Origin: Solitalea lacus
Lineage (GTDB): Bacteria; Bacteroidota; Bacteroidia; Sphingobacteriales; Sphingobacteriaceae
Length of the DNA stretch: 64,000 bases
Assembly (NCBI RefSeq): GCF_022014595.1
Contig: NZ_CP091740.1
Location: 3,336,200 to 3,400,199 of the forward strand
Direction of reading: 5' to 3'
Below the pieces are notes generated by a model. That model was not told the origin of the DNA, made no database searches, and was given only the letters and a program-made list of their open reading frames with translations. Shown here in pieces: positions 4,489 through 31,613 of the stretch. A program made the translations under genes and the position numbers. Numbering within the stretch: position 1 is the stretch's first letter; each line of letters begins with the position of its first letter.

Positions 4489-4512
4489 GCTCAATTTCTT
4501 TACTCTTACTGA

Positions 4513-5193: not shown

Positions 5194-6597
5194 CTAGTTT
5201 GAAATGGGTTTATTATCATAAACTGCAGGTATCTGTTGCTGTAACCAAATGGTCATCCATGCTGACCCCATTCGGGTGGCAATGGCTTCTTCTTTGCCCG
5301 GATAACTGTTTTCCTTGTCATTGGCATAGGTGTGCCTGTCAGCAAAACGTTTCTGTTGCTCCAGCACTTTGGCAGTATGCAGTTTTGCCCAATATTTCCC
5401 ATTATGTTTTTGCGCCCGATTATCCCATCCATATGTAGAGGCTGCAATATCAAGATTAGCATAGGTATCATAAACACCAAAGCCCCAGTCTGAACCTTCT
5501 GGATAATAAACCTCAGGTGAGCCCACCTGGTACATCGTACCGCCCGGTGCTTTATAAGGAGGTGCTGAAAACTGATGTGAAGTGATGGAATAGTAAATTT
5601 TGTCAAGATTAAAGCGCGCGGCTTCCGGCGTTGCTTTTCCAACCAGGGAGAATACGATCGGCGCATTGATCATCGAGGCAAGTGCATTATACATTGGATG
5701 GATAATGCCGTGGTTGATTACAAAACCTGGCTCTTCTATATTGTAGCCATTCAGCCAACTGCTTACAGGACGGCCATGTAAAATTCTGGCATTGTTTAAA
5801 TCAGATGGCAAAGAAGTTGCCGCGATTAAATACTCAGCAGCTTTATATAACCACTTATTTGCATTAGGATGATTTGGTAGCATTACGGCTGCCAGATATA
5901 ACAATTCAGCGTTCCAGGCATCTTCTTCAATTTTAGAATCGCCGGGAAACAATACTTTCCCTGTACTGTCTTTATAATACGGAGGAGCAACTGAAAGAAA
6001 ACGATTAGCTTCCGCAATTATCATCTGGACCAAATAAACTTGATCCTTTGCTGAAAAATCATCCCATAAGAGCCAAGCTGCATATCCGGCATCATAGGCC
6101 CAATGTGCTGCCTGCCAATCACCACCCCAAACCTTGCGGGTATTATTGGCTTTATGATCATAAGCCACAGAACTAAGCATCAGGATAGCTTTATCTTTAG
6201 CTTCTTGTAAGGACACTCCTGTTACAGAAGGATCATAAATTCCTGTTTTAATAGCGATAGCTATACCGAATGACATTGCCGCCGGAAAACGGTACCGGTA
6301 TTCATTTATCTTTGATTTGCTTTTCAGGTCGAGGTACCCGGTTGAATCAATCCGGTATTTTTTTACATTATGGTACCACGCAGTAAGCGCAAACCTGTTT
6401 GCATTAAGCAAGGTAGCTTTTACAGTAGTTGCTAATTTATCCTTGGGTGCTTTTTTTTGAAATTGACTCCAATTAATCGGCATCACCATGGTTGCACTAT
6501 CTGCCTTAATAACTGTACTCGCTTGGCTCTTTCCTGAATTAGCTAATATTATGATGAACAATAAAATAATTGCTCCTATTCGTAATTGACATTTCAT
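5194..6597 (-). CDS. Secreted helical-toroid-like protein of the polysaccharide locus, unknown activity
   Basis: 467 residues with a signal peptide (residues 1-26, ending SGKSQA). I do not recognise the family. Regularly spaced Trp/Tyr-rich helical segments (WQAAHWAYDAGYAAWLLWDD; EEDAWNAELLYLAAVMLPNH) suggest an alpha/alpha-toroid like polysaccharide lyases and GH88/GH105 enzymes. The block EEPGFVINHGIIHPMYNAL recalls the Asn-His-Gly...His-Pro-x-Tyr segment of some toroid lyases, which would supply Asn/His/Tyr catalytic residues; PEGSDWGFGVYDTYANLDI is a second conserved-looking block. It is the last gene of the GH105/DUF2264 run and follows the broken sulfatase. A lyase making the unsaturated uronides that GH105 consumes would fit, but this is inference. 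An inactive glycan-binding toroid is the alternative. Confidence 0.75.
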   Translation of the reverse strand: MKCQLRIGAIILLFIIILANSGKSQASTVIKADSATMVMPINWSQFQKKAPKDKLATTVKATLLNANRFALTAWYHNVKKYRIDSTGYLDLKSKSKINEYRYRFPAAMSFGIAIAIKTGIYDPSVTGVSLQEAKDKAILMLSSVAYDHKANNTRKVWGGDWQAAHWAYDAGYAAWLLWDDFSAKDQVYLVQMIIAEANRFLSVAPPYYKDSTGKVLFPGDSKIEEDAWNAELLYLAAVMLPNHPNANKWLYKAAEYLIAATSLPSDLNNARILHGRPVSSWLNGYNIEEPGFVINHGIIHPMYNALASMINAPIVFSLVGKATPEAARFNLDKIYYSITSHQFSAPPYKAPGGTMYQVGSPEVYYPEGSDWGFGVYDTYANLDIAASTYGWDNRAQKHNGKYWAKLHTAKVLEQQKRFADRHTYANDKENSYPGKEEAIATRMGSAWMTIWLQQQIPAVYDNKPISN

Positions 6598-6608
6598 TTT
6601 ATTAAATA

Positions 6609-6826
6609 CTATTTTCGAAAGAATTGGTCAGTCTGCCGAATTAAATCATCTACAATCTTCGTATACTTTGTATCCTGGGCAAAATTCTTTAGTTCTTTAC
6701 TTTCAACTGTGATCATATAATTCTATCTCGTTTAATGTCATGAGGATTCCAGTGGATCAAATGATATTACCGGCGAAAAGAATAACCCATTAGTTTACCT
6801 CTTGGATATTGGCTCACAGCATAGCC
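6609..6826 (-). pseudogene. 3' remnant of an iduronate-2-sulfatase-like sulfatase
   Basis: Between the DUF2264 gene and the 467-residue gene, reading from 6826 downwards gives GYAVSQYPRGKLMGYSFRR, a stop, YHLIHWNPHDIKRDRII. After frame changes near 6715 it continues YDHS and then VESKELKNFAQD...IVDDLIRQTDQFFRK, stop at 6609. This follows the C-terminal order of iduronate-2-sulfatase-type sulfatases (SQYPR, MGYSxRT.RY, ELYDH, then a 'xELxNxA' helix and a terminal helix). The catalytic N-terminal half with the formylglycine motif is absent. At least one in-frame stop and two frame changes make it a relic. Only the last piece, 6609-6716, is an open 35-codon frame. It indicates that a sulfatase once belonged to this locus. 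Confidence 0.72.
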
Positions 6827-6892
6827 TTAAGAACTATTCTACGTTTCATTGAGCATACACAAGCTAGTATAAAAGGCATATCTAAACTATTT

Positions 6893-8161
6893 TTAATATT
6901 CAACATGATAATCTTTCGTAAACGGTTGGCTATTCCAAGCCTTTTTTGAAGTCCAGTCAGCAGCAGGATCGGTCCAGAATTTATTATCGGCCGATAAGCC
7001 CAGCGGTAAAAATCCCAAGGTGGCCATATATAAGCTTCCGGTAGAAGTATAACCATCGGCGATCATCGGTTGCGAGCCGCAAAAGCCCAAGACCAGCCAA
7101 CCATTACTGTCGAAATTATCGCATTGGTCATACATGCGATGCATCACCGCGCTTAAGGCACAGCGCACCTGCGCAGGCTGAATGTATTCAGGCAATTTTT
7201 CCATGAGTGCTACTTGCGCCAAGGCCTGAAAGGCTGCTGTACGATAGGTAATGGAGCGCCCAAATGCAGGATATGTACCATCAGGAGCAATAAAACGCTC
7301 TGAGAATTCTGAATAACGGATCATGCGTTTCAGAGCTTTATCATACTCCTCAGGTTTAAGTCGTTTTTTGTCAACCAATACCTTGAAGAAATCCACAAGC
7401 ATAGGGTGAATAACATAACTATTATAATAATCGAGGCTAAAGCTAGGTCCATCACTATACCATCCATCTCCTACATACCATTCATTAATTTTCTTTTGTG
7501 CGTATTGAATACGTACCGGATCAGCCTTTTCGCCAATGTTCATTAAAAAAGCTTCATTGATACCTGCAAACAACAACCAGTTGTTGTAAGCCCCGGTCAT
7601 GGTACGAAGGGCTTTAAACTCTTCGGTCACTCTTTTCTTGGTTAAAGAATCCAAAGGTTCCCACAAGGCTTTCGGCGCTCTTAAAAATGCCTGTGCCATA
7701 TATGCAGCATCAACAATAGGTTGGGCGTCTGTTCTGAAATTCAGATAATCTGGATTATTGGGATCAACAGCATTGACAATACCTTTCAATAAGGCGGCAC
7801 GCAACTCCTTACGCATCTTCCCTTCTTTAGTATTGTCATCAGGTAAAGCCAGCCAGGGAGCCACTCCCGCCATTGTACGCCCAACAGCTTCCAGATGAGT
7901 GACTTTTTTGTATGAATCCGGTTTTGCTCCAGGAGGAACTTCTACGGGCATATTTTTTCTCAGCGTTCCATTGGCCAGGTTGAAAATGACAGGTGAAGCC
8001 ATTTTATATAATAAATTGCTCCAGTATTCCCGGTCCTGAAGTCCGGTGTTTATAACAGTTTTCTCGCTTTTTTTCTTTTGAGCATAAACCGAAGTATTGC
8101 TAAAGCCAAGCAAAACAAGCAAAATAAGCATCATTCCGCTTGTTCTTTTAATTAATACCAT
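6893..8161 (-). CDS. DUF2264 domain protein
   Basis: 422 residues, signal peptide at 1-27 (...NTSVYAQ). The body matches the DUF2264 family along its length: WSNLLYKMASPVIFNLANG near the start, HLEAVGRTMAGVAPWLAL (~residues 88-106), NNWLLFAGINEAFL, and YVGDGWYSDGPSFSLDYYN (~230). The family is an all-helical toroid found in polysaccharide utilisation loci next to GH88/GH105, sulfatases and lyases; its reaction is not established to my knowledge. Length is normal. It lies 26 bp after the GH105 gene on the same strand and is probably co-transcribed. Confidence 0.9.
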   Translation of the reverse strand: MVLIKRTSGMMLILLVLLGFSNTSVYAQKKKSEKTVINTGLQDREYWSNLLYKMASPVIFNLANGTLRKNMPVEVPPGAKPDSYKKVTHLEAVGRTMAGVAPWLALPDDNTKEGKMRKELRAALLKGIVNAVDPNNPDYLNFRTDAQPIVDAAYMAQAFLRAPKALWEPLDSLTKKRVTEEFKALRTMTGAYNNWLLFAGINEAFLMNIGEKADPVRIQYAQKKINEWYVGDGWYSDGPSFSLDYYNSYVIHPMLVDFFKVLVDKKRLKPEEYDKALKRMIRYSEFSERFIAPDGTYPAFGRSITYRTAAFQALAQVALMEKLPEYIQPAQVRCALSAVMHRMYDQCDNFDSNGWLVLGFCGSQPMIADGYTSTGSLYMATLGFLPLGLSADNKFWTDPAADWTSKKAWNSQPFTKDYHVEY

Positions 8162-8187
8162 ATTAATAATGAATAAAAGAATTTAGG

Positions 8188-9546
8188 TTAATTACTGGTC
8201 CTTTTAATTTTAAAAATCTTGTTTCCCCCCGGAGTTAATGACGTTTGAAAAACAATCGATTTAGGCTTTTGCTGATCAGTGTAAATTACCTCAAAAGGAA
8301 TTTGCTGGCCTGATACAGCATCTTCTACCACAAGACCTTTTACTTTCGCTTTTTTGATTTGCGCTGTTACAGAAGACCATTCCACCGTTATTTTCTCATT
8401 CCTTTCAGATGCAGCAGGATTAACTGCCTCCACCATAGCTGTATTTTTTTCCTGATCAACGGTCATGCGTAACATTTCAGTACCCGCTAATAAAAATGCT
8501 CCAACACCATACACATCAGTATCGTCGTAGGTTACTTTATCTGGAGCTGCACCCTGTGCCTGTACAAAACCAAGTTTACCATTAGGATGCATAGACGTTG
8601 TGAGGGCATCCCAGGCTTTAGCAACTACTGTTGAGTATTTTTTATATGGCAAAATACCTTGATTAATTCCCCAGGTTAAGGCGTAACAAAAGAAACCTGT
8701 GCCGCTGGTTTCCTTAACAGGATATGTAGCCGGATCTAGTAAACTGGCATGCCAGCTCCCATCAGCTTGCTGTATGCTGGCAACTTTAGCCGACATATCT
8801 TTGAACAATTGGACAAATTTTTCTCTATCGGGATGATTTTTAGGCATTACGGAAAGAACTCTTACCAGTCCGCCCATTACCCAACCATTACCACGACTCC
8901 AAAACACTTTTGCTCCGTTCTTCTCTTTTTTATTGAAATAACGGCTATCTCTATAATAAAGGTGTTCATCTTTATCGTACAAGTACTCCGTTGATTTCCA
9001 CCATAACTTTGAGGTACAATCCAAATATTTCATATCGCCTGTGGCTTCAGCCAAATAAGCTAATGCTGGAGGTCCCATAAACAAGGCATCACACCATGCC
9101 CATTCGCGCATATGAATTCCTTTTTTCCATTCCAGACCTTCTGTATGAGGCAACATAGCAATGGTATCTGCTAGGGTCTTGAAGTCTTCAATATACCTTG
9201 GGTCTTTATAAATGGTGTAAAGTTGTGAGTAAAGCTGTCCAACACAATAATCGTCGGCAAAGTGACGGTACTTACCCACTTTCCATTTATTGTCTTCTCC
9301 AACCTGTATCAATTTTTTGAAATAAGTTTCGTCATTAGCCACCTTAGCCCAGGCCACCATACCTGCATACATCGCTCCACTGGTCCAATCCTTTTTAGGA
9401 TTTCTCCAGCCCTCGGTTTCTAAGGTTTTCCATTGCCAATCGGCCACCTTTTTCATTTGATGAAAAATACTATCGGCTCGCAATTGGGCTAGAGCCGAAC
9501 AAAATGTTACAAGCACTAACAGTAGCGAAAATGTAAGTTTGCGCAT
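8188..9546 (-). CDS. GH105 unsaturated uronyl hydrolase (YteR-like)
   Basis: 452 residues with signal peptide (MRKLTFSLLLVLVTFCSALAQ). Hallmarks of the GH88/GH105 toroid: FADDYCVGQLYSQLY (~96-110), WAWCDALFMGPPALAYLA (~149-166; Asp153 corresponds by pattern to the catalytic Asp143 of YteR), FWSRGNGWVMGGL, QQADGSWHASLLDP and ETSGTGFFCYALTWGINQG. These enzymes hydrate the double bond of 4,5-unsaturated galacturonyl or glucuronyl ends left by polysaccharide lyases and release the sugar, acting in the periplasm or outside the cell. A short C-terminal beta-rich tail follows residue ~370. The gene implies that a lyase acts upstream, yet none is recognisable in the window. Confidence 0.92.
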   Translation of the reverse strand: MRKLTFSLLLVLVTFCSALAQLRADSIFHQMKKVADWQWKTLETEGWRNPKKDWTSGAMYAGMVAWAKVANDETYFKKLIQVGEDNKWKVGKYRHFADDYCVGQLYSQLYTIYKDPRYIEDFKTLADTIAMLPHTEGLEWKKGIHMREWAWCDALFMGPPALAYLAEATGDMKYLDCTSKLWWKSTEYLYDKDEHLYYRDSRYFNKKEKNGAKVFWSRGNGWVMGGLVRVLSVMPKNHPDREKFVQLFKDMSAKVASIQQADGSWHASLLDPATYPVKETSGTGFFCYALTWGINQGILPYKKYSTVVAKAWDALTTSMHPNGKLGFVQAQGAAPDKVTYDDTDVYGVGAFLLAGTEMLRMTVDQEKNTAMVEAVNPAASERNEKITVEWSSVTAQIKKAKVKGLVVEDAVSGQQIPFEVIYTDQQKPKSIVFQTSLTPGGNKIFKIKRTSN

Positions 9547-9738: not shown

Positions 9739-11475
9739 TTACCAGCCTGGGTTTTGTTTTAAATTTGAAGAAATATTGATTTGTGACTGAGGAATCGGTA
9801 ACAAATACATATTATCATTATACGGACAAGGAGGCTTAACAAAATCTCTTTCCTCGTAAGTATAATTAGTACCTAATGGGGTAATAGTACCACTTTTGGG
9901 GGTAACTACCATCATTCGTAATGGTTTACAATATGTATCAGGAAGAATTTTCCAACGTCTGATATCATAGAAACGATGTTCTTCGAATGCCAATTCAATA
10001 CGACGTTCATCGCGAATATAAGTCCGCATTTGATCTTGCGTCAAACCTGTAGGAAGATTAAACGGATTTAAACCAGCTCTTTTGCGAATTTCAGCCATAG
10101 GAGCATAAGCTTCAGCAGTTTGTCCATTCTCGTTCAGGGCTTCTGCATAGTTCAAGAGCACCTCTGCATATCTTAAGAATGGGAAGTAATGCTCAGCGCC
10201 ACCGGTAGAACCGGTAACATCTTCACTCATCATTTTACGGTTAAAGTAACCACTTTGCGTACCAACGCTAGCAAACGGAATGGTTAATCCATCTGTTGGA
10301 GCATTTAAATACGTATATACCGGACCGAAAGTACCAGAAGTAGTTTTCCAAGTAGCTCCATTATAAATAACAGAACGGTAAAAACGAGGATCACGACCTA
10401 CATATGGATTTTGCGGATTATAGCCCGAGGTTGGATCTGTAATCGGCTTACCATTAGCCATAGGGAAGGCATTTACATAATTGCCATTAGGGGAAGTATG
10501 AAGCGCTCCACCACGGCTTTTAGGCAAATGTGAAGCTTCATAACTACGATTACTACCTGAAAGACGCATGAAAATCATTTCCGGATTATTACGCGTTAAA
10601 AACACTTTATAAAAACCTTCGGCAGTGCTGTTATCATTATTTGTTCCTTGCATTAGTGAGTACACCCCCATATCAATTACGGCTTTTGCTGCATCTCGAG
10701 CTAAAACCCAACGATTTGGTGAACCCTCTTTGTATCCGTATATCGCATCTTTATTTGCTGCCAGTTGACCTCCATTAAACAAAGGGCTTGCTGCAAATAG
10801 TAGAACCCTGGCCTTCAAAGCTAGGCAAGCACCCTTAGTGGCGCGCCCATAATCCTGTCCAACATACCTGATCGGAAGATCAGCAGCTGCTGCATCCAGA
10901 TCTTGGATCATAAAATTCACACATTCTTCGTAAGTATTACGCGGTAAATTAAGATCCTCATTGACACCCCAAGTTCTATCCAGAATAGGAACTCCACCAT
11001 AGGTTTTTGTTAAAATATGATAAAACCATGCACGTAAAAAACGAGCTTCAGCTTTCATTCTTTTTTTCCCTATGGCCGATAAAGGAGATTCATCTACACG
11101 AGCAATAAATAAATTAATTTTACGAATAGTTTTATAAGTGTCGCTCCAATGATTAGTAAATGGCAAAGGTATTGAGCTAGCCGTATATGCACCCTGTTGG
11201 AAAGTCCAACCGGAAAGGGTAGTAGACCAGCGCTCGTCTGATTCGTCAGAAAATTCCGATAAGGTATTCGAGGTGTTGATACGAGTCATATAATTTTCCG
11301 GCCCCACACCACTATAAGCACTTGTTAATACCTGAACAGTTTTGATACTATCGGACCAAACAGCTGCATCAAATATATCTGTTTGTGTATCATTGGTTAA
11401 CAAACCCTCTTTCTGACAAGCTAATAAAGCCAAAGCAGAAAAAGCCGGTAAGATTAAATATTTAGAGATTTTCAT
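9739..11475 (-). CDS. SusD/RagB-family glycan-binding lipoprotein
   Basis: 578 residues from the preferred ATG at 11475, which gives the lipoprotein signal MKISKYLILPAFSALALLAC with Cys20 as lipidation site. A longer frame from 11508 would overlap the susC stop and bury the signal. SusD features: TPR helices with RFLRAWFYHILTKTYGGVPI, the RATKGACLALKARVLLFAASPLFNG block, HYFPFLRYAEVLLNYAEALNENG, RDERRIELAFEEHRFYDIRRWK, and a typical end with NPGW. It sits on the cell surface as the lid of the SusC channel encoded just before it. The gene begins 19 bp after susC. Confidence 0.95.
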   Translation of the reverse strand: MKISKYLILPAFSALALLACQKEGLLTNDTQTDIFDAAVWSDSIKTVQVLTSAYSGVGPENYMTRINTSNTLSEFSDESDERWSTTLSGWTFQQGAYTASSIPLPFTNHWSDTYKTIRKINLFIARVDESPLSAIGKKRMKAEARFLRAWFYHILTKTYGGVPILDRTWGVNEDLNLPRNTYEECVNFMIQDLDAAAADLPIRYVGQDYGRATKGACLALKARVLLFAASPLFNGGQLAANKDAIYGYKEGSPNRWVLARDAAKAVIDMGVYSLMQGTNNDNSTAEGFYKVFLTRNNPEMIFMRLSGSNRSYEASHLPKSRGGALHTSPNGNYVNAFPMANGKPITDPTSGYNPQNPYVGRDPRFYRSVIYNGATWKTTSGTFGPVYTYLNAPTDGLTIPFASVGTQSGYFNRKMMSEDVTGSTGGAEHYFPFLRYAEVLLNYAEALNENGQTAEAYAPMAEIRKRAGLNPFNLPTGLTQDQMRTYIRDERRIELAFEEHRFYDIRRWKILPDTYCKPLRMMVVTPKSGTITPLGTNYTYEERDFVKPPCPYNDNMYLLPIPQSQINISSNLKQNPGW

Positions 11476-11494
11476 GTTTAAATAATTTGTTGGA

Positions 11495-14400
11495 TTAAAA
11501 ATTAGCATTTAAACCAAAGCTAAATACTCGCTGTTGTGGATAATTTTCACCGCGACCTGATGGAGACTCAGGGTCAACAATTTTTACCTTATCCCAGGTA
11601 AAAATGTTAGAAGCATTAGTATATAGACGTAAACTTTGAATACCAACACGCTTAATAACCGCAGGAGTAAAAGTGTATCCCATTTCAACATTTTTTAGGC
11701 GAAGGTAATCACCTGAATATTGCCAAAATGATGATGCCACTCTGTTAACTCCATTTGAAAAGTGTAAGGTAGGATAAGTAGCAGTAGCTGCCGTTTCAGG
11801 AGTCCATCGGCCTAAATGGAATTCCTGGAATTTACCCAAGTTATCATAAACAAGCTCACTATTTAATGTAAGGCTACTGTTCTTTGATCCTTGCAGCAAG
11901 AAGCTAAAATCAAATCCTTTATAGTTAGCTCCAGCTGAGAAGCCAAAAGTGGTATTAGGAATTATCGGATATCCAATTGGGCCTTTATCATTATCGTTAA
12001 TAACACCGTCGTTATTTAAATCTTTATATCTAATATCACCCGGCGATAAAACTCCTGTCTGCCTTGCGTTATTAGCATCTGCAAGTTCTTCTGCTGTCCA
12101 GAATCCTATAGCTGTCCATCCAAAGGGTTGGTTAACCGATTGACCAGTAGCCCTTAAATAATCAAAGGATTTTGGAGCTTCATCACGCTCTAGCACCTTA
12201 TTTTTAGCATAAGCCACATTGGCTTTCAGAAAATAGCCAACCTTTCCAATGTTATTGTTGTGGCCAATCTCTAATTCAAAACCTTTATTACTTACTTTAC
12301 CCATGTTCATTTCAGGCAAGTCAACCCCAATAATTTGGCCCACGGTAGCACGAGTAGTAATAATATCGTAACGGTAGTTATCAAAGTAATCTGCCGTAAT
12401 GTTCAACTTTGATTTAAACAATTGAGTTTCAAAACCAATGTTTGATTTTCTCTCTTTTTCCCAGGTAAGGTTTGGATTACCAATTTTACCTTCTGCCAAA
12501 CCGGAATAAGTTGCATTACTTTCGCCAAAATTATAAGACCCCGAGCTAACGTAAGTGCTTAAATAAGCATAGGTCTCTAAAGCAATACCAATATCATCAT
12601 TACCTACTATACCATAAGAACCACGAATTTTCATGAAATCAATAAACTTCGCGTGTTTTTTAATGAATGGCTCTTCACTTAAAACCCAACCTGCTGAAAC
12701 GGCAGGGAAAAACCCGAAATGATTTTGTTTATTAAATGAGTTTGAGCCATTATATCCGGCATTCAACTCTAATAGATAGCGCTGGTTATAATTATAAGTC
12801 ATACGACCAACATATCCTAAATAACTAATAGGTCTATTAGGTCCTACAAGCTTTGTATTTTGATTGTATAATGCTAATACACTAAGATTATGCTTACCAA
12901 ACGTATTTGTATAATTCAATGATGTTTGGATATCAGTAATTGTTTTAGGAGCCTGATTGCCTGTAGTTAATAGATAAGGTCTCAATACAGGGGCTTCCGG
13001 TTTATATAGTAAATAAGTATCGTTAGTTGCATTATAACGATAAGTAGGATAATCGTCTCTGTATAAACTTTTTAAGGAATACTGATTATTTGAAAAAGCC
13101 ATTTGTGCTTTAGCTGACAATCCTTTTAGCAGAAAATCTAACTTATGAGTGGCACTAACAGTAGTAGAAAGATCGGTTTGATAACTTCTGTCATAACCGG
13201 CTAAGGTTAATTGCGCTACCATATTCGGGTGCATAGTAGCATCAACTGGAGCACCATAAGAACCATCAGGATTGTAAATTGGGAACGCATAAGGAGCAGC
13301 ACCAAGACGCATCAACTGGTTAAATACAGAGCGACCGGCCTCTCTAGGATGCGGTTGATTTACATTTTGTAATTGAGAAGAAAGGTTAAGCGTTAAATCA
13401 AGATTCTTATTAACATTAATATCAACGTTTGAACGGAAGTTATAGCGTTTAAAATAATAACCATTATCCGTTTCACTTTCTTTAAAGTCTTTAAAAATAC
13501 CACCTTGGTTTAAATAGCCCGCAGATACGAAATACTTAACGCGATCAGTACCTCCTGATATATTGGCATTATACTGAGTTTGCACCGAGGCTTTGTTCAT
13601 CAACTCCTTATACCAATCTACATTAGGGTATACGTCAGGCATGTCTCCATTTTTGAAATGCTCCATAGCCGCTTCAGAATAAGGGAAATTGGCGCCTATT
13701 TTGTCATTTACATAACTCTCCTTTAATAAGGTAAGGGCATTATAAGAATCTAAAAATTCAGGCATTCGATGAACCATATTTACCCCAGACTGAGCACTAA
13801 AGCTCACTTTAGGTTCACCAGTTTTTCCGCGACGGGTAGTAATAATAATAACACCGTTAGCACCTTTCACCCCATAGACAGCAGTGGCAGAAGCATCTTT
13901 TAAGATAGAGATATTTTCTACCTCATTCATATCAATTTGACCGATACTTTCTTGTTGTATTCCATCAACAATAAATAAGGGACTCGTTCCTCCTCTGAAA
14001 GAACTTACTCCCCTGATTTGAAGATTAGCTGCATCTTTACCTGGTTGTCCGCTATTTTGTTGAGAAAAAAGACCCGGCAAACGACCAGCCAATGCATTGG
14101 TTAAGTTAGCTGTAGGGCTTTGTCTAAGCTCCTTTCCGCTTACAGAGGCAATAGCTCCGGTTACTGTAGGCTTCTTTTGCACACCAAAAGCAACTACAAC
14201 AACTTCTCCTAAGTCTTGAGCAGCCTCCTGAAGGGTTACATTATAAACTGTTTTTTTATCCAGTACTAATTCTCTAGTATTAAAACCGATTGCTTTGAAA
14301 ATTAATTTTCCGCTAGCAGGAGCATTTTTAATAGAGAACTTACCATCTGCATCAGTTGCAGCTCCATTAGTTGTACCTTCAATGATCACACTTACCCCTG

Positions 14401-14506
14401 GCAAAGGACCAATTTTATCATAAACAGTACCACTAACTGTTCGATTCTGTGCCATTACCTGTATTACAGCTAATAAACACACTATTAGTAAATATATCTT
14501 CTTCAT
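11495..14506 (-). CDS. SusC/RagA TonB-linked outer-membrane channel
   Basis: 1003 residues: signal peptide 1-19 (...AVIQVMAQ), a carboxypeptidase-regulatory-like domain (~22-95, DADGKFSIKNAPASG), then a plug with LTNALAGRLPGLFSQQNSG, LQIRGVSSFRGG, PLFIVDGI, ISILKDASATAVYGVKGANG and VIIITTRRGKTGEP, and a large beta-barrel ending in NANF with the aromatic terminal residue used for barrel insertion. Normal length. Energised by TonB, it imports glycan fragments captured with its SusD. It lies between two susD genes and pairs with the downstream one (19-bp gap to its start). Confidence 0.96.
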   Translation of the reverse strand: MKKIYLLIVCLLAVIQVMAQNRTVSGTVYDKIGPLPGVSVIIEGTTNGAATDADGKFSIKNAPASGKLIFKAIGFNTRELVLDKKTVYNVTLQEAAQDLGEVVVVAFGVQKKPTVTGAIASVSGKELRQSPTANLTNALAGRLPGLFSQQNSGQPGKDAANLQIRGVSSFRGGTSPLFIVDGIQQESIGQIDMNEVENISILKDASATAVYGVKGANGVIIITTRRGKTGEPKVSFSAQSGVNMVHRMPEFLDSYNALTLLKESYVNDKIGANFPYSEAAMEHFKNGDMPDVYPNVDWYKELMNKASVQTQYNANISGGTDRVKYFVSAGYLNQGGIFKDFKESETDNGYYFKRYNFRSNVDINVNKNLDLTLNLSSQLQNVNQPHPREAGRSVFNQLMRLGAAPYAFPIYNPDGSYGAPVDATMHPNMVAQLTLAGYDRSYQTDLSTTVSATHKLDFLLKGLSAKAQMAFSNNQYSLKSLYRDDYPTYRYNATNDTYLLYKPEAPVLRPYLLTTGNQAPKTITDIQTSLNYTNTFGKHNLSVLALYNQNTKLVGPNRPISYLGYVGRMTYNYNQRYLLELNAGYNGSNSFNKQNHFGFFPAVSAGWVLSEEPFIKKHAKFIDFMKIRGSYGIVGNDDIGIALETYAYLSTYVSSGSYNFGESNATYSGLAEGKIGNPNLTWEKERKSNIGFETQLFKSKLNITADYFDNYRYDIITTRATVGQIIGVDLPEMNMGKVSNKGFELEIGHNNNIGKVGYFLKANVAYAKNKVLERDEAPKSFDYLRATGQSVNQPFGWTAIGFWTAEELADANNARQTGVLSPGDIRYKDLNNDGVINDNDKGPIGYPIIPNTTFGFSAGANYKGFDFSFLLQGSKNSSLTLNSELVYDNLGKFQEFHLGRWTPETAATATYPTLHFSNGVNRVASSFWQYSGDYLRLKNVEMGYTFTPAVIKRVGIQSLRLYTNASNIFTWDKVKIVDPESPSGRGENYPQQRVFSFGLNANF

Positions 14507-14540: not shown

Positions 14541-16184
14541 CTAGTTCCATCCTTGATTTTGATCTAATTGATTATTTCTCATTATCTCCGAAAAAGGAAC
14601 TGGATAGAGATTCATTTTTTGATCATATGTAACATCTTGCACCTTCACGATCTGATACGTTAAAGCTGAGGTTACAGGATCTTTGGTAATTTTCATACCT
14701 CTCAAACTACCGTTTAACACATCTTTGGCAATATTCCATCGGCGGATATCCCAAAATCTGTGCTCCTCAAAGGCCAACTCACAACGGCGCTCATTACGGA
14801 TAATATCGCGCATTTGGGCTTGTGTTAAGCTTCCTGCAGCTAGTGGAGTTGTAAAACCTGCACGGGTACGAATAAGATTGATGGCTGTATAAACAGAAGC
14901 ATCAGGGCTTGCTAAAGCTTCATTTTGTGCTTCAGCATAGTTTAATAAAACTTCAGCATATCTAAAGAGTGGGAAGTTATGTGTAGCACTTGTGAAAGAA
15001 GCTGCAGATCCTGTGGTAGTCATAAACTTACGCATATAATACCCGGTCTTTGTTCCGCTGCCTACACCTGGTTTCAAATTATGTTTACCTCCGTCGAACA
15101 ATTCTAAAGGGGTACTTAACCAGCTCATCCCGTTATAAAAGATAGTAAGGGCAAAACGAATATCCCTATTTGTAGCAGGAGCTGCCTGGCTATATCCGGA
15201 AGTAGGGTCAGTAATACTTTTGCCGTTCTTCATCTTGAAAGCTTCCACTAAATCCTGGGTAGGATTGGTATAACCTTTACCTGCACGCTGAAAGCCAGGC
15301 GGCTCATTGAATGACTCCACTGAAGTATTATCAGCTTGTTGATATGCTAAAATAAATTCGGTGTTATTACGGGTTGTGAACATAGTTCCAAAGCTGGCTG
15401 ATGCTACAAGCTGGTAAGCACCCATGTCCATAAGTTCCTTAGCCGCAGCTGCTGCCGCTTGCCATTTAGTGATGTCATTGGTTGGATTGTATAATGGGCT
15501 CGCATCATATAACAATAAGCGGGCTTTTAAGGCTAAGACAGCACCCTTGCTAATGCGACCAATCTCATAGGTAGCATCAGTAGTGAGCAGTACCTTACCT
15601 TTAATTGCATCACACTCGCTCACGATATAGTTTACACACTCTTGGCGGGTATTGCGTGCTAATGATAAGTTATCATCTACGGCAAAAACCTTATCACCCA
15701 CCAATGGAACATTTCCCCAACGTTTTACCAACTCAAAATAAAACATAGCTCTTAAAAAACGTACTTCAGCTTTAATAGCATCTTTACGAACCTGAGGTAT
15801 TCCTGAGTTGTCTATATTAGCAAGTAATACATTAACACGTCTAATTGCAGCATAATTACTTGCCCATGGATTTTCAGGTAAATCCGTAGGACTCACTTGA
15901 CCTATTTTAAACTTATCTACTTCAACAGTTGTTGAGCTTGCACTAACCGCATCATCAGTAGCTGCATCTAAAACATTACTACCAATACGGTTAAAGCCAC
16001 GCGGCAGCTGCGCATAAATACTTGCAACATACTCATTTATCATATTACCCTCTTTATCTTTCGGGCTAAAAATATCGGTAATATCCGTACGATCTACAGG
16101 TAGCTGCGTCATTACATCTTTCTCACAAGAAGAAAGTAACAACGAAAAAAACAAACAGCTAATTAATGTATAGTTTCTTTTCAT
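14541..16184 (-). CDS. SusD/RagB-family glycan-binding lipoprotein
   Basis: 547 residues; signal and lipobox MKRNYTLISCLFFSLLLSSC put the lipidated cysteine at residue 20. SusD markers are EVRFLRAMFYFELVKRWGNVP, RISKGAVLALKARLLLYDASP, NFPLFRYAEVLLNYAEAQN, RNERRCELAFEEHRFWDIRRW and a C-terminal NQGWN. It starts 22 bp after the divergent susC and ends 34 bp before the next susC, so the two pairs form one tight unit. It shares the RagB/SusD fold with the other SusD here but differs clearly in sequence, suggesting a different ligand rather than a recent duplicate. Confidence 0.95.
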   Translation of the reverse strand: MKRNYTLISCLFFSLLLSSCEKDVMTQLPVDRTDITDIFSPKDKEGNMINEYVASIYAQLPRGFNRIGSNVLDAATDDAVSASSTTVEVDKFKIGQVSPTDLPENPWASNYAAIRRVNVLLANIDNSGIPQVRKDAIKAEVRFLRAMFYFELVKRWGNVPLVGDKVFAVDDNLSLARNTRQECVNYIVSECDAIKGKVLLTTDATYEIGRISKGAVLALKARLLLYDASPLYNPTNDITKWQAAAAAAKELMDMGAYQLVASASFGTMFTTRNNTEFILAYQQADNTSVESFNEPPGFQRAGKGYTNPTQDLVEAFKMKNGKSITDPTSGYSQAAPATNRDIRFALTIFYNGMSWLSTPLELFDGGKHNLKPGVGSGTKTGYYMRKFMTTTGSAASFTSATHNFPLFRYAEVLLNYAEAQNEALASPDASVYTAINLIRTRAGFTTPLAAGSLTQAQMRDIIRNERRCELAFEEHRFWDIRRWNIAKDVLNGSLRGMKITKDPVTSALTYQIVKVQDVTYDQKMNLYPVPFSEIMRNNQLDQNQGWN

Positions 16185-16206: not shown

Positions 16207-19200
16207 TTAAAACTTAGCACTAATTCCTACTGTATAACTTTTGTACAGAGGATAGAAATTGAATAATGCTTCCGGGTCCATATCCTTAAGCTTGGTAATG
16301 GTTAATGGATTATATGCATTAACAAATACTCTCAAATTTGAAAGATGGATTTTATTTGACGCAGAAGATGGTAACGTATATCCTAACTCTACATTCTTCA
16401 CACGCAGATAATCGCCATCTTTGATCCAATAAGTAGAAGTACGATGATTGTTAACATTGGTTCCGTAAGTTAAACGCGGATAAGTAGCAGTAGCAGCAGT
16501 TTCCGGCGTCCAACGGTTTAAGTGTAAATTTTGTACCGTACCAGATGATACTCCATTATTCTGAAACTCCCATGCATTGCTTCCGGTAAAGAAGAAATCT
16601 TTATTAGCAACACCTTGCACCACGGCAGAGAAATCAAAACCTTGGTATTTCAAGCCTAATGACCCCGAGTAGTAAATTGGAGCCGATTTTTTTCCGATTG
16701 CAGTTACATCATTATCATCAATTACCTTATCACCGTTCAAATCTTTATACTTAATATCACCTGGCTGCAGGGCTACACCAAACTGAGTTGGACTAGTAGC
16801 GATTTCTGCTTGTGATTGGAATAAACCTAAAGCAACTAAGCCAAACGGCTGGCCAACACGCTGACCGGTTCTGTATTGATAATCATACGGACGGTTTACC
16901 TCATCTTGGAAAATCACTTTATTATCAAACAACTGAGCATTGGCAGCTAAACTTAGGTCAACTTTACCTAAACGAACGCTATAATCAGAACCTAACTCAA
17001 TACCTTCATAACGATATTTACCCAAGTTTTCATCAGGATAGCTTAATCCTAAAAGAGTGTTTGAGGAGCCTGGCGCTTGCAATACATCATATCTGTATTT
17101 GTTAAAGTATTCAACCGTTACTCCCAATTTATTGTCAAGCATGCGGGCCTGGATACCGGCATTAAACACTTTAGATTTCTCCCAAGTAATATTAGGATTT
17201 GCAATAGCGGCTTCATTCCATCCACCCAAAGCTGTTCCTGAGTTACCAAAATAATAAACATTGCTACTAGAAGTATAATACGGTTGGTATGCATAATTTG
17301 ATGCTCGGTCAAAACCTAACAAACCACCTGATACCTTAAATTTCAACTGATTAATACCAGAGGTTTTTAAGAAATCTTCTTTAGCAAGGTCATAGCCAAC
17401 AGACATAGCAGGGAAGAATCCATATCGGCTTCCTTTTACGTACTGTTCTGTACCTTGGTAGCTGAATGCCACATCAGCAAAAAGCTTTTCATTATAATCA
17501 TAGCTTACACGACCCATAACACCTTTATAAGCATGGGTTAGCGACGTGCCAATATCATACTGATCCCATGTATAGCGTACAGTTGCATCAATTCCATGTT
17601 TATCAAAAGAATGGTTATAAGACAAGCCTCCATCCAAACTCAAACGTCTCGAAAAACTGTTGTCATAACTATCAGAACTTGAGTAATTTGCATTCGTTCC
17701 GAATTGCTGGTAAGTTTTATTTGCTGTAGCCGGGTCAACCGTTAACTGGTAAACGGCAAAGTTAGAACGACTTCTAAAAACTGTATTGCTATAATAAGAA
17801 GTATAATGAACTGAACCTGTAGCTGAAAGGCCTTCAGTAATAAAATTAAGTTTGCGGTTAAGGTCAGCATCTACAAATGCTATTCTTCTGCTTTCACGAT
17901 TAAAGCCGGTTTTGTTAATTAATCCATAGATATTAGCTTTATATAATGAATTACCGCCTAATAATGTAGTATCGGGAATAAATACCGGGTATGCATTTGC
18001 AGGAGTACTTTTTAACGCACTCATGATAGAACCGATACCTGCACCAGGAGAATTGGCCTTTTCAAATTTACCGGCAAGGCGTAATCCTACACTCGTATTC
18101 TTATCAATATCAATATCTACATTTGAACGAAATGCATATCTGTTGTAATCGTTATTAGTATTATAATCTTGTGAGCCAACATTAAACATCCCCCCCTGAT
18201 TCATATTTTCAAGAGATACGAAATAACGAGCAGAAGCATTTCCTCCTGTTGCATTAAAATTATATCGGGTAAAGTTATATGTAGGTTTTAAGGCCAATTT
18301 GAACCAATCTACATTTGGATGCCCGTTAGGATCAGTTCCATTTTTATATGCATCCAAATCAGCTTGTGTATAAGGCTCTGTGCTACCATCATTCCTTGCT
18401 GCTTCGTTTGACAGAACAGCATAATTATAAGAATCAAGGTACTTGGGCAGATACGTAGGTTGTTGAAGCGCCCCTTGAGCAGAAAAACTGATCGTTTGCT
18501 TTTTAGCAGATCCGCTCTTGGTTTTCACAACAATTATCCCATCTGAACTACGCATACCAAATGGAGCCAGGGAAGCCGGATCTTTTAAAACACTGATCTC
18601 AGCAATTTCACTTGTGTTGATTTGATCAATATCACGTACTTGACCATCAACAATAATTACCGGAGAAAAATTTCTAAGCGAGAAATTGGAACCGTCATTT
18701 CCAAAAGAAATAGATTGGGAAGAAATTAAGCCTAACAATCTACCTGCAAGAGCATTACTGGCCGATGGTGAACCTACGGTATTAATGTCATCACCTTTAA
18801 TAGTTGCAACTGCTCCTGAAAAGGTTTTAGCCTTATGGGTTCCGTAAAGAAACTGAATGGTTTCTGATGTTAAATCACTTGGATCCAATTTAACATTAAA
18901 CCTCGTTTTGTTTTTTACACTAACCTGAAATGGCTGAAAGTTTGGCGCCGTAAAAACAAGAATATCATTTTCACCGGCCTTAATACTAAACTCTCCAGCC
19001 GCATCGGTTTGAGTACTGCGTTTGGTACCTTTAACAGCCACAACTACTCCCAGTAGCGGCAGTTTAGCATCATCTACTACAGTTCCTGTTACTGGAGTTG
19101 TCTGAGCTTTCAGCATGCTGTAAGGCAACAAAACCAGTAAGATCAAAACAAGTGATAACCACGTTTTGCAGCGGTCAGTTTTTGAGATGTCTTTGGACCA

Positions 19201-19233
19201 AACACCTCCGGGGTTTACGTAAACTTTTATCAT
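16207..19233 (-). CDS. Divergent SusC-type TonB-linked outer-membrane protein
   Basis: 1008 residues. A ~20-residue charged lead precedes the hydrophobic signal WLSLVLILLVLLPYSMLKAQ (~25-44). A carboxypeptidase-regulatory-like domain (~48-118) is followed by a plug and barrel ending in the aromatic SAKF. The plug departs from the usual motifs: the IRG block is SLRN, the VLIDG block is VIIVDG, and the YGxRAANGVIxITTK block is FGMRSSDGIIVVKTK. Many Bacteroidota loci carry such a second, atypical SusC beside a classical pair. First gene of the transport unit; palindromic operator candidates lie 92-133 bp upstream of its ATG. Confidence 0.93.
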   Translation of the reverse strand: MIKVYVNPGGVWSKDISKTDRCKTWLSLVLILLVLLPYSMLKAQTTPVTGTVVDDAKLPLLGVVVAVKGTKRSTQTDAAGEFSIKAGENDILVFTAPNFQPFQVSVKNKTRFNVKLDPSDLTSETIQFLYGTHKAKTFSGAVATIKGDDINTVGSPSASNALAGRLLGLISSQSISFGNDGSNFSLRNFSPVIIVDGQVRDIDQINTSEIAEISVLKDPASLAPFGMRSSDGIIVVKTKSGSAKKQTISFSAQGALQQPTYLPKYLDSYNYAVLSNEAARNDGSTEPYTQADLDAYKNGTDPNGHPNVDWFKLALKPTYNFTRYNFNATGGNASARYFVSLENMNQGGMFNVGSQDYNTNNDYNRYAFRSNVDIDIDKNTSVGLRLAGKFEKANSPGAGIGSIMSALKSTPANAYPVFIPDTTLLGGNSLYKANIYGLINKTGFNRESRRIAFVDADLNRKLNFITEGLSATGSVHYTSYYSNTVFRSRSNFAVYQLTVDPATANKTYQQFGTNANYSSSDSYDNSFSRRLSLDGGLSYNHSFDKHGIDATVRYTWDQYDIGTSLTHAYKGVMGRVSYDYNEKLFADVAFSYQGTEQYVKGSRYGFFPAMSVGYDLAKEDFLKTSGINQLKFKVSGGLLGFDRASNYAYQPYYTSSSNVYYFGNSGTALGGWNEAAIANPNITWEKSKVFNAGIQARMLDNKLGVTVEYFNKYRYDVLQAPGSSNTLLGLSYPDENLGKYRYEGIELGSDYSVRLGKVDLSLAANAQLFDNKVIFQDEVNRPYDYQYRTGQRVGQPFGLVALGLFQSQAEIATSPTQFGVALQPGDIKYKDLNGDKVIDDNDVTAIGKKSAPIYYSGSLGLKYQGFDFSAVVQGVANKDFFFTGSNAWEFQNNGVSSGTVQNLHLNRWTPETAATATYPRLTYGTNVNNHRTSTYWIKDGDYLRVKNVELGYTLPSSASNKIHLSNLRVFVNAYNPLTITKLKDMDPEALFNFYPLYKSYTVGISAKF

Positions 19234-19648: not shown

Positions 19649-20671
19649 CTATTGCCGTTTGCTCGATTCCCTTTCAATCAGGTTAACACCCACTACCTGC
19701 TTTCTTGGTAGAATCAGTGATTCAACTGGATTCATTTGTTGATGCAAGGTTTGAAATGCTAAGCGTCCCAATTCATACGCAGCTTGATCAACAGAAGTAA
19801 TGGATGGAGTAAAAATCTCAGTGAGCGGGTCATTGGAATACCCTACAATTGCGAAATCATCTGGTATCACTAAACCTTTATCTTTTGCTATTTGGGCAGC
19901 TACAATTGCTGATAAATCATTTGAAGCAAATAAAGCGTCTGGCAATTCTTGCAAGGCAAACATCTTTTCACAGACTTCTACCGAAGATTCTTTGGTTAAT
20001 AAGTGCTCAAAAATAATCATATCGTCTACCGGTAAGTTATGCTTTATCAGCGCATCTTTATAACCCGCTAATCGATTCTTATAGATATTCACGCCGGTAG
20101 GCCCAGTGAAATGGGCTATTCGTTTACAACCATTCACAATCAAGTGTTCAGTTGCCATAAAACCACCCAGATAATCATCCCCTTCAATTACAGGCCCTGT
20201 ATAATTTTGAGGTACCCTGTCAAAAAAAACCAGTGGAATCTTTTTCTTAATGAAAGAATCTAATGATGAGCTATCCTTTGTAAACATCGTTGTGGACAGC
20301 ATCAATCCATCTACCCTGCTTAAGAACATGGTATTTACCAACTCCTTCTCCATATTAATTTCTTCATTTGACTGGGAAACGAGTAAATTGTAGCCATATT
20401 CGTGCGCCTTATCTTGCACTCCGCTAATTACCATGGAATGAAAAAACATGTTGATACGTGGCACTATCAAACCAACCGTTTTGGTTTCTTTTTTTCGAAG
20501 GCTCGATGCGACTGTATTCAGGCGATATCCCATCTGACTGGCAGTTTCCATAACCAAGTCAATAGTTTCCTTTTTATTTCCCTTGCCTCCATTTAAAGCC
20601 CTGGAAACCGTCGCTGAAGAAAGCCCTAACTTCTCCGCTATATCATAAATTGTAATTTCTTTTTCCTTCAT
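19649..20671 (-). CDS. LacI-family transcriptional regulator
   Basis: 340 residues from the preferred ATG at 20671; a frame from 20698 would add nine residues before the conserved start. The helix-turn-helix is ITIYDIAEKLGLSSATVSRAL, with hinge region YRLNTVASSLRKKETKTVGL. A periplasmic-binding-like sensor domain follows (VDGLMLSTT, LVFFDRVP, GCKRIAHFTGP, DALFASNDLSA, AIVGYSNDPLTEIFTPSITSV). Such proteins bind palindromic operators and respond to a sugar. It is encoded upstream of, and on the same strand as, the polysaccharide locus, with matching palindromes before itself and before susC. It is probably the local repressor or activator; the inducer is unknown. Confidence 0.93.
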   Translation of the reverse strand: MKEKEITIYDIAEKLGLSSATVSRALNGGKGNKKETIDLVMETASQMGYRLNTVASSLRKKETKTVGLIVPRINMFFHSMVISGVQDKAHEYGYNLLVSQSNEEINMEKELVNTMFLSRVDGLMLSTTMFTKDSSSLDSFIKKKIPLVFFDRVPQNYTGPVIEGDDYLGGFMATEHLIVNGCKRIAHFTGPTGVNIYKNRLAGYKDALIKHNLPVDDMIIFEHLLTKESSVEVCEKMFALQELPDALFASNDLSAIVAAQIAKDKGLVIPDDFAIVGYSNDPLTEIFTPSITSVDQAAYELGRLAFQTLHQQMNPVESLILPRKQVVGVNLIERESSKRQ

Positions 20672-20708
20672 TTTACAGAAACAAATATATGGAAACACAA
20701 ACTACAAA

Positions 20709-29257: not shown

Positions 29258-29302
29258 ATGCTTATCCCTAAAATCTGTAAAAATCAAACAACCATATTAT
29301 AC

Positions 29303-31613
29303 ATGTACGGCAGAAAGTTTTTTTTCACACTAAGTTTTGTTATGGCCTTATTTTGCTATATCAAAGCACAACCAGTACCTTCAAAACCAATTCCCTTATC
29401 ACCCTACAAACCAACCCACTCAGAAGTGATAGAACGCTATCAAAAGGCTGCTTTATTAGACAGTATGGTTAAAAACACTGTCTTTAAAATGAATATACAG
29501 CCCAACTGGCAGGCCGATGGCAATAGCTTCTGGTATCGCAATTATTCAAAAGACAGTACCACCGAGTACATTTACGTAGATGCAGTTAACGGAAAAAGGC
29601 AACTCGCTTTTGATCAAAGTCGATTGGCCGAGGCTATCAGCAAAGTATCCGGAAAACCTATTGATGCCCGTCGGATGCAAATCACAACTATGAAATTTGA
29701 AAGCTCCAACAAAATATCCCTTCAGTTTAATGGCCAATACTGGCAATGTGACCTGTCTACTTATAACTGTACTCCTTCTGTTCAATCTATTACTGAATCG
29801 GCATTAAAATATCGTTTTAACTCTTACAATCGCTGGACGCTCCAGCATATTCAAAGCGATAGTATTTCACCTGATAAAAAATGGTTTGCCTTTATTAAAA
29901 ACCACAATGTTTACATGCGTCCTGTAAACGGCGGCGCAGAAGTGGTTTTTACTTCCGATGGTACACAGCAACAGCCGTATGGAGAGATCAAATGGTCTCC
30001 CGACAGTAAATATTTTATAGCTTACAAAATCAACCCTAAAGAATTTAAAGAAGTATATTATGTATTAAGTTCTGTAGAAAACACCACCCGTGGTCTACTA
30101 AAATCACAACAATATCCACAACCTGGTGATGAATTTACTAACTATGAAATGTTTGTATTTCATGTAGACAACAAACAGCCTATTAAAGTTAATACCGAAA
30201 AATACGACTTTTTAGGGATGCCTTATCCAAGATGGAATAAAATACAACAGTCGGTATTTCACATACGAAAAAACAGACCGCGGGCATCAACGTTTTCGTA
30301 TCATTGAAGTAGATGCAGTAAACGGCAATACCCGAAATATTGTTGATGAACAAACAAACACCTTCATTTACGAAAACCGCATTTATACCAATTATCTTCA
30401 GAATAGTAATGAAATTCTGTGGGCTACTGAAAAAGACGGATGGCGTCAGTTATATTTAGTGGATGCATCCAAAGCAAATGTTAAACCCATAACAAAAGGC
30501 GAATGGGTGGTACGCGGAGTTGATAGTGTGGATGAAAAAAAACGGGAAATATGGTTTAGCGCCAGCGGCATGAACAAAAACGAAGACCCCTATAACATTC
30601 ATTACTATCGTATTGGATTAGATGGAAAAGGATTAATTCAGCTAACCCCTGCCGAAGGTAATCACCAGGTGATTTTTTCACCCGATAGAAGATACTTTAT
30701 TGATACTTACTCACAGCCTCATGTGCCACCTGTAACGGAGTTACACCGCACTTCAGACGGCAAATTAATTATGGAATTGGAAAAGGCGGATATTTCTGCC
30801 TATCTGGCTACCGGTATCCGTTTACCGGAAGTGCTTCATGCTAAGGCAAGAGATAGTAAAACTGATATTTGGGGTGTAATGTTCCGCCCGCGAAATTTTG
30901 ACCCAAATAAACGTTACCCGGTCATTGAAAATATTTATGCAGGTCCGCATGACGCTTTTTCTCCTAAAAACTTTTTGCCCTATGGTGAAATGCAAAGCAT
31001 AGCAGAATTAGGATTCATTGTAGTGCAAATCGACGGTATGGGAACTGCTAACCGCTCAAAAGCCTTTCACGATGTGTGCTGGAAAAATTTAGCCGATGCA
31101 GGATTCCCCGACCGCATTCTTTGGATCAAAGCACTTGCGGCAAAATATCCGTATGTTGACACCACAAGGGTAGGCTTATACGGCACTTCAGCAGGCGGGC
31201 AAAATGCTTTGGGCGCCCTGTTATTTCATCCCGATTTTTACAAAGCAGCCGTTTCCTCATGCGGTTGCCACGATAACCGTATAGATAAACAGTGGTGGAA
31301 CGAACAGTGGATGGGTTATCCGGTAGGTAAACATTACGATGAGCAATCCAATGTGACCAATGCCCATAAACTGCAAGGCGATCTATTGTTGATTGTTGGT
31401 GAAGCAGATACAAATGTTCCTCCTGAATCAACCTACCGCGTGGCCGATGCACTGATAAAAGCCGGTAAAACCTTTGATTTCTTACCCATACCTGGTTTGG
31501 GCCATAGTGATGGAGGTCCTTACGGAAGAAAACGAAAAAGGGATTTCTTTATAAAGAGTTTTTTCGGGGTTGATCCGCCAAACCGTAACAAAAATGAATT
31601 GAGCTGCAATTAA
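29303..31613 (+). pseudogene. S9 prolyl oligopeptidase, DPP-IV-like, split by a +1 frameshift
   Basis: The first frame runs from ATG 29303 (signal peptide MYGRKFFFTLSFVMALFCYIKAQ; a longer start exists at 29258) to a premature stop at 30307. The family sequence continues in another frame as [20 protein letters not shown]... to 31613. One extra A at 30263 (CAC-A-TAC) explains the break; it is not in a long homopolymer. The N-terminal part is a DPP-IV beta-propeller (WQADGNSFWYRNYSKDS). The C-terminal part is the alpha/beta hydrolase with nucleophile motif GTSAGG, Asp in [12 protein letters not shown] and His in PGLGHSDGG. Repaired, it would encode about 770 residues, normal for a secreted peptidase cleaving N-terminal X-Pro dipeptides. 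As written, the catalytic domain is lost unless an internal start (e.g. 30459) is used. Confidence 0.9.

Follow-up and report, generated by a model that had tools for sequence, protein, structure and literature searches.

We analysed a window of 64,000 nucleotides (nt) of Solitalea lacus contig NZ_CP091740.1, with positions counted from the first nucleotide of the window unless a locus is named, and with a focus on three adjacent minus-strand open reading frames (ORFs). An earlier note, made from the sequence alone, had read them as a run of secreted helical enzymes in a locus that needs a polysaccharide lyase. The three genes were confirmed in the order claimed, with intervening gaps of 295 and 26 bases, and each product has a hydrophobic N-terminus of signal type, as judged by eye.

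5194..6597, minus strand: secreted protein of 467 amino acids (aa), family unnamed; modelled as an (alpha/alpha)6 toroid; candidate lyase or hydrolase with endo action on polysaccharides
6893..8161, minus strand: DUF2264 protein, formerly glycoside hydrolase family 154 (GH154), 422 aa; predicted secreted beta-D-glucuronate 4,5-dehydratase
8188..9546, minus strand: GH105-type unsaturated uronyl hydrolase, 452 aa, with a GH88/105 domain; D153 aligned with YteR D143

The 467-aa protein is very likely a polysaccharide-cutting enzyme. Because it is placed beside two glucuronate-finishing enzymes, and because a relative occurs in a Klebsiella prophage gene resembling a tail spike, its most likely substrates are acidic sugar polymers.

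The 467-aa protein belongs to an unnamed family

As the earlier note had said, the 467-aa protein could not be placed in a known family. Its best Pfam match (E 0.086, 12.8 bits) fell below the cut-off of 27, NCBIfam and PHROGs gave nothing at E<=1, and the best Protein Data Bank (PDB) sequence had E 0.37. A 12-row profile gave nothing in the PDB at E<=10, and thus matched no solved member of polysaccharide lyase family 35 (PL35). At E<=1, Pfam found in it no Lyase_8 domain (PL8), no Hepar_II_III or DUF4962 domain (PL12, PL15 and PL21), no alginate lyase domain (presumably that of PL5) and no GH88/GH105, GH76 or GH154 domain. Profile comparisons of the family with GH105, GH154, PL8, Hepar_II_III, GH76, DUF4962 and GH95 were made with hhalign, using SusD, GH43 and LacI as controls and rerunning 7 of the 10 comparisons under other settings. 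Nothing significant was obtained with these profiles of 1 to 11 rows, which may miss weak kinship; the best probabilities were 2.9% (GH154, alignment A3, E 0.015) and 2.8% (PL8, alignment A6, E 0.016). Nor was anything obtained when the C-terminal regions of 12 longer members were compared with PL8, Hepar_II_III and others. No earlier description of the family was found in the open papers searched, CAZy not being part of that search.

The family is patchily distributed, since among 60 related genomes, that of S. lacus included, only the S. lacus genome has the gene. A scan of bacterial and archaeal genomes returned 13 loci with relatives, 12 of them at 75-81% identity (Pedobacter, Flavobacterium and Paraflavisolibacter) and one, from a Beckwithbacteria bin, at 30%. 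Profile searches detected it in 4 of the 395 genomes searched within the class, S. lacus among them, and in 119 of 399 genomes of one bacterial family (f33), which we guess to be Bacteroidaceae. Two Halocatena records and one Klebsiella record came from a plasmid search; the Halocatena relative lies amid three sulfatase genes, a family-78 glycosidase, a xylanase and an L-rhamnose mutarotase. The family is fused to GH43 in Pedobacter planticolens (locus L006, 8414-11323, plus strand) and to a sialic-acid-type acetylesterase in locus L015. Work on the window protein would bear on the naming and likely role of a family carried by nearly a third of the f33 genomes searched and by a Klebsiella prophage spike-like protein.

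Flavobacterium fluvii has a second member of 648 aa with an extra C-terminal part (L003, 14443-16389, minus strand), which adjoins DUF4861 and lies near GH154.

Predicted fold

The toroid-like helices proposed by the earlier note were borne out by structure prediction. The AlphaFold model (mean predicted local distance difference test, pLDDT, 86.8; predicted template-modelling score, pTM, 0.87) is an (alpha/alpha)6 toroid whose final helix stops at residue 455 of 467, with no second domain. In VIA-align comparisons the highest Z was given by 9o3q, titled chondroitinase (Z 21.7, root-mean-square deviation 3.3 A, 297 aligned), which we take to be BcPL35 of PMC12269599. The PL35 enzyme GAGase VII (8khw; Z 20.9, 3.4 A, 301 aligned) and human dermatan sulfate epimerase (6hzn; Z 20.6, 3.6 A, 314 aligned) came next, and a PL39 lyase scored 19.1 (4.2 A, 309 aligned). 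A viral fold library gave nothing at E<=0.001, the best matches being an unnamed protein (0.043) and a Cellulophaga phage structural protein (0.053). The fold can be considered settled at the level of prediction; the chemistry is not settled by the model.

The third rank of dermatan sulfate epimerase raises the question of whether the 467-aa protein might be a polymer-level uronate dehydratase or C5-epimerase that does not cut the chain. The GH154 active site contains an E-x3-R pair (E91/R95), to which E99/R103 of the 467-aa family may be compared, and GH154 gave the lowest, insignificant, profile E-value with alignment A3. That comparison is far from significant, however, and PL8 did equally well with alignment A6; moreover, a dehydratase is already present at the locus, and epimerising a capsule would be of little use to a phage spike. 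We consider such an activity quite improbable.

Conserved residues and candidate active site

Two conserved motifs stand out in the 467-aa protein.

5689..5715, minus strand: motif NHGIIHPMY, residues 295-303; N295, H296 and Y303 invariant in 30/30 rows; directly precedes helix 304-318
5914..5940, minus strand: motif DSKIEEDAW, residues 220-228; D220, E224, E225 and W228 invariant in 30/30 rows; start of helix 223-239

The alignment comprised 30 rows, including nine close relatives and two nearly identical prophage rows, and 17 of its columns were checked. Eleven of these are invariant (W157, W161, E196, D220, E224, E225, W228, N295, H296, Y303 and W371), and the others are kept to differing degrees: H148 in 29 rows, D370 in 28, R103 in 26 (two gaps and two Met in the rest), H300 in 26, E99 in 25 and N229 in 19. 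An NHG...HPxY block resembling catalytic segments of some toroid lyases had been pointed out before; it is present, with its Asn, first His and Tyr invariant, whereas the rest is not, H300 being the example.

Of the 14 columns whose weighted conservation reaches 0.9, 10 are found close to the N-ends of alternate helices, against a background of 26.5%, and 6 of 406 cyclic shifts match this; at a threshold of 0.8, the figures are 16 of 26 columns and 8 of 406 shifts. This test is post hoc, the inner helices having been picked after the positions of the conserved columns were known, and it was based on 12 main helices out of 18, after the signal helix and the short ones had been dropped and two neighbours merged. 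Clustering of this kind is how the site of a toroid enzyme looks, and in the model the invariant N-H...Y set sits at the rim together with most of the other conserved residues. No reported activity was found for any family member, which would suit a non-catalytic binding or structural protein. We hold this to be highly improbable, given the 11 invariant columns, the clustering of conserved positions, and the esterases and beta-helices that are borne elsewhere by the spike anchor described below.

According to a table in PMC12088678, Asn, His and Tyr form the usual catalytic set of toroid lyases. PL35 is listed with N192, Y246 and H401, and PL8, 12, 15, 17, 21, 23 and 39 with Tyr and His plus an Asn, Asp, Glu, Arg or His neutraliser; His precedes Tyr by 9 residues in PL8 and by 8 in PL23 (PMC12088678). 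In the 467-aa protein, H296 lies 7 residues before Y303. PL33 is described as using N238, Y291 and H444 for catalysis and R103 and H154 to hold the sugar (PMC11848413), and the PL5 lyase Smlt1473 as having an adjacent N167-H168 pair plus Y222 (PMC8511899). The 467-aa protein resembles the latter in its invariant Asn-His pair and Tyr, but it has no family match to PL5, and its Tyr follows the pair by 7-8 residues as against 54-55 in Smlt1473. By helix order, as judged from spacing, Y303 could occupy the position of the lyase tyrosine and E224/E225 that of the neutraliser.

A predicted dehydratase can supply the GH105 enzyme

From the presence of GH105, which acts on unsaturated uronides, the earlier note had concluded that a lyase was missing from the locus, and it had named the DUF2264 protein as a second candidate. 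Its premise that no known lyase is recognisable in the window held: Pfam scans of 26 of the 27 ORFs of at least 200 aa and of two others, run at E<=1 in one case and E<=0.001 in three, found no lyase family. The ORF of this length outside the scans (35134-37389, plus strand) lies within a 2853-aa ORF on the opposite strand, and most shorter ORFs were also outside them. Lyase_8_N, Hepar_II_III_N and DUF4962, the lyase families tried on the whole S. lacus genome (4.4 Mb, one contig), had no match there.

The conclusion itself did not survive. The protein encoded at 6893-8161 matches Pfam DUF2264 at 409 bits (E 2e-122; cut-off 25 bits) and PDB entries 9o4u (E 3.5e-171) and 9nwf (E 2e-170), named glucuronic acid or glucuronate dehydratase. 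It is 64% identical to that enzyme, BcGDH, over 386 aligned positions, and keeps all ten active-site residues mutated in PMC12269599 (E91, R95, N193, N194, W195, F198, Y246, R302, Y306 and Y371). None of the ten BcGDH mutants had measurable activity, on a substrate described as relatively poor (PMC12269599). We predict that the window protein is a beta-glucuronate dehydratase of the former GH154 group, a role and substrate that rest on sequence comparison with BcGDH. Given this identity and the complete set of dehydratase residues, the DUF2264 protein was rejected as a lyase. Former GH154 enzymes are described as dehydrating saturated glucuronate at the non-reducing end to an unsaturated end that a GH88 enzyme cuts, and the authors of that work state that their genes are frequently found beside GH88 or GH105 (PMC12269599). 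A comparable pairing, of an unrelated dehydratase with GH105, is described for ulvan (PMC8511951).

The window DUF2264 gene is the only match to that family in its genome. GH88-domain matches number three there: the window GH105 protein at 294.8 bits, and two at 37.1 and 26.7 bits, still over the cut-off. The GH105 protein itself (Pfam Glyco_hydro_88, E 2.2e-87) has 4ce7, a GH105 enzyme, as its closest solved relative. It shares with the unsaturated uronyl hydrolases 4ce7 and 5noa the family domain and the aspartate D153, which aligns with the YteR residue changed in 2gh4, and differs from them by about 90 extra C-terminal residues past the domain. Because the predicted dehydratase would make unsaturated ends, GH105 can be supplied with substrate without a lyase; a lyase at this locus is possible, not required. 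A GH105 gene beside a DUF2264 gene thus does not call for a lyase, which corrects an inference that is easily made.

Genomic context of the family

The three genes come after two SusD/SusC pairs and a LacI-family regulator, so the locus looks like a polysaccharide-utilisation locus (PUL), in which the 467-aa gene is last in the direction of transcription, behind the 295-base gap. All five of the following features were assigned by Pfam and NCBIfam.

9739..11508, minus strand: SusD-like outer-membrane sugar-binding protein
11495..14506, minus strand: SusC-like TonB-dependent transporter
14541..16184, minus strand: second SusD-like protein
16207..19233, minus strand: second SusC-like transporter
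19649..20698, minus strand: LacI-family regulator adjoining the PUL

Tandem SusC/SusD doubling also occurs upstream of the relative in Pedobacter (L002) and is probable in L005 and L012, both of which end within the first SusC gene.

To compare neighbourhoods we used the 13 loci of the genome scan and 16 f33 stretches hand-picked from the 119 genomes; several loci are shortened by contig ends. GH154 or GH88/105 was present in the fetched flanks of 7 of the 13 and 3 of the 16, so that uronide enzymes lie nearby in 10/29 loci, a count made with GH154 and GH105 profiles only, which missed a Pfam-visible GH88 in L129, one of the f33 stretches, and may have missed others. All three genes are adjacent in L005, L007, L008, L010 and L012. 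In L008 the relative stands with a sulfatase, GH88/105, GH154 and GH123, a gene set much like the chondroitin PUL of PMC12269599, in which a toroid lyase (PL35) is described together with GH88, GH109 and a dehydratase. Haloarchaeal loci for glycosaminoglycans are likewise reported to combine a lyase with GH88 and GH154 (PMC13260240). The 467-aa gene occupies a PUL slot similar to that of PL35, beside a dehydratase and an unsaturated uronyl hydrolase, and its predicted product shares the toroid fold. It differs from PL35 in having no detectable sequence similarity, no second, beta-sheet domain such as PMC12269599 describes, and another spacing of the catalytic candidates.

The relative in L002 lies behind its two SusC/SusD pairs, and its 10-kb flanks contain no GH154 or GH105 gene, an arrangement which suggests that a protein of the 467-aa type makes the first cut. 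The same locus would also fit a protein acting on non-uronides, for instance a side-chain glycosidase, with its adjacency to GH105 and GH154 in the window being incidental. The GH43 fusion in L006, the GH43 genes adjoining the relative in L012 and two genes off in L131, and the 13 f33 loci that show no uronide gene all point the same way. The uronide enzymes near 10 loci, and above all the five loci with the three genes adjacent, speak against it, and we regard it as improbable.

Relatives in a prophage spike-like protein and in viral contigs

In the Klebsiella record, the gene comes after one for a TipJ-type tail protein, and only the second half of its product belongs to the 467-aa family. 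The first ~115 residues are shared with other proteins: 71 phage records match, 67 of them named Klebsiella, none over more than 80% of the length. PHROG matches, two of which are tail fiber families, fall within residues 1-137 only. Among viral contigs, 215 stretches matched the spike-like protein and 79 loci were kept; three (L048-L050) contain the whole protein, and the other 76 match only up to residue 155. We scanned with Pfam 40 proteins bearing this anchor, namely that of L048 plus a non-redundant 39 from the 72 that are complete. They gave GDSL_2 in 10, Lipase_GDSL in 8 (these may overlap), beta-helix in 4, SASA esterase in 3, and BNR and BNR_2 in one each, and at least 13 match none of these families. 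From the families found behind the anchor, this slot often holds sugar-acting enzymes.

Four other viral contigs carry the domain. It follows tail genes in L044 and has helicase and exonuclease genes near it in L046, where no tail gene was seen; in L045 and in L047, the two proteins scanned had no PHROG match. A quick tree placed the Klebsiella record in one group with the viral rows (support 0.89), beside the single-domain bacterial rows. The window protein itself had no match among 50,697 phage records, and viral contigs scanned with a profile of longer f33 members (A4) and with the 648-aa paralog yielded no relative. A toroid in a spike-like protein would liken the family to the alpha/alpha toroid phage depolymerases, from which it differs in that no PHROG covers the domain and the window protein lacks phage matches. 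Toroids are rare among phage depolymerases, at 11 of 984 fold hits reported in PMC11326577, and this gives the Klebsiella relative its weight.

Behind the spike gene of L048, at 9779-12306, are a beta-helix protein and a membrane protein whose weak Wzy and O-antigen-ligase matches do not reach the Pfam cut-offs; it looks as though this prophage also altered the surface sugar of its host. The Klebsiella record (L019, 727 kb) is labelled a plasmid; housekeeping genes (lepA, lepB, rnc, era, recO, pdxJ and acpS) lie beside prophage genes in it.

Mode of action of the 467-aa protein

We tentatively favour, with a probability of about 0.45, a secreted single-domain toroid that cleaves internal bonds of a polysaccharide containing glucuronate by beta-elimination. 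The toroid model, the highest Z with PL35, the invariant N295, H296 and Y303, the clustering of conserved columns, the uronide neighbours and the spike-like placement together lead us to it. From these we infer action on a polymer, glucuronate in that polymer, the eliminative chemistry and the following roles of single residues. N295, or else E224/E225 where an earlier inner helix begins, would neutralise the carboxylate charge, H296 would serve with Y303 as the base and acid, and the uronate would be held by R103 and H148. Cut fragments would enter through SusC/SusD, and GH105 would take off the unsaturated ends produced by the cut. The former GH154 protein would dehydrate saturated glucuronate ends to unsaturated ones, and GH105 would remove those too.

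Several results weigh against elimination. No sequence link joins the family to any lyase family tested by Pfam, PDB or hhalign, and GH154 and GH88/105 are both absent from the stretch covered in 6 of the 13 loci and in 13 of the 16. D220, E224 and E225 equal N295, H296 and Y303 in invariance and would suit a hydrolase. The Tyr lies 7-8 residues past the N-H pair, against 53-57 from the Asn or His in PL5, 12, 15, 17, 33 and 35 as described in the sources cited above, and the second domain that bears the catalytic H444 in PL33 is missing here. By fold, VIA-align gave Z 20.0 with the GH105 enzyme YteR (2gh4; 3.6 A, 293 aligned) and 19.7 with a cellobiose 2-epimerase (3.8 A, 309 aligned), and the top Foldseek match was a GH76 mannanase (6shm; E 0.0094), with none below 0.001. 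The toroid of the 648-aa paralog has two epimerases as its top matches (Z 21.2 and 21.0), then PL35 (20.9). The fold search that the earlier note had proposed put PL35 first by Z, and the near-tied scores of the predicted model do not separate lyases from GH105/GH88 hydrolases and epimerases. The lyase role that it had proposed for this protein keeps the toroid, the invariant N-H...Y set and a likely polymer-facing role, from the PUL and the spike-like gene; the fold does not decide between lyase and hydrolase.

PL5 structures were also among the toroid matches of the paralog. It was modelled to see whether a beta-sandwich accompanies the toroid in longer members; no structure was predicted for its C-terminal third (mean pLDDT 59.3, below 50 for residues 417-648).

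A toroid-type endo-acting glycoside hydrolase is a possible, lower-ranked account. It would leave fragments whose non-reducing ends are saturated glucuronate, for the dehydratase and then GH105, the three enzymes jointly doing the work of a lyase. As the dehydratase acts on saturated ends, this accounts both for its presence and for the sufficiency of three enzymes. The three invariant carboxylates fit, the adjacent acids recalling the Asp pair mutated in the GH76 structure 6shm, and a toroid hydrolase lies less than 2 Z below the best lyase. Yet strictly invariant N295, H296 and Y303 are more usual in lyases, the other candidate acids, D370 and E99, are not conserved in the Klebsiella rows, and no sequence link to GH76, GH88/105 or GH95 was found. 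We accordingly rank the lyase ahead. It is rather unlikely, in our estimate, that we are dealing with an undescribed toroid family, spread over bacterial sugar-uptake loci, haloarchaeal plasmids and phage spikes, whose member here is a hydrolase. Were this true, hydrolysis, dehydration and GH105 cleavage would follow one another as a relay of three enzymes, and lyase-pathway products would arise with no lyase involved.

Other features of the window

Three further features of the window were noted. A large minus-strand protein truncated by the window edge (1-4494) has sortilin/Vps10-type repeats, two CBM96 stretches, four bacterial Ig stretches and a discoidin-type domain. At 29258-31613 (plus strand), a gene of dipeptidyl-peptidase IV (DPPIV) type occupies two reading frames and is possibly frameshifted, with DPPIV_N in the first frame and the end of DPPIV_N plus S9 in the second. 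The region 31849-42260 holds the gene of the 2853-aa protein, which has PKD domains and a signal for type IX secretion, next to a DDE transposase gene.

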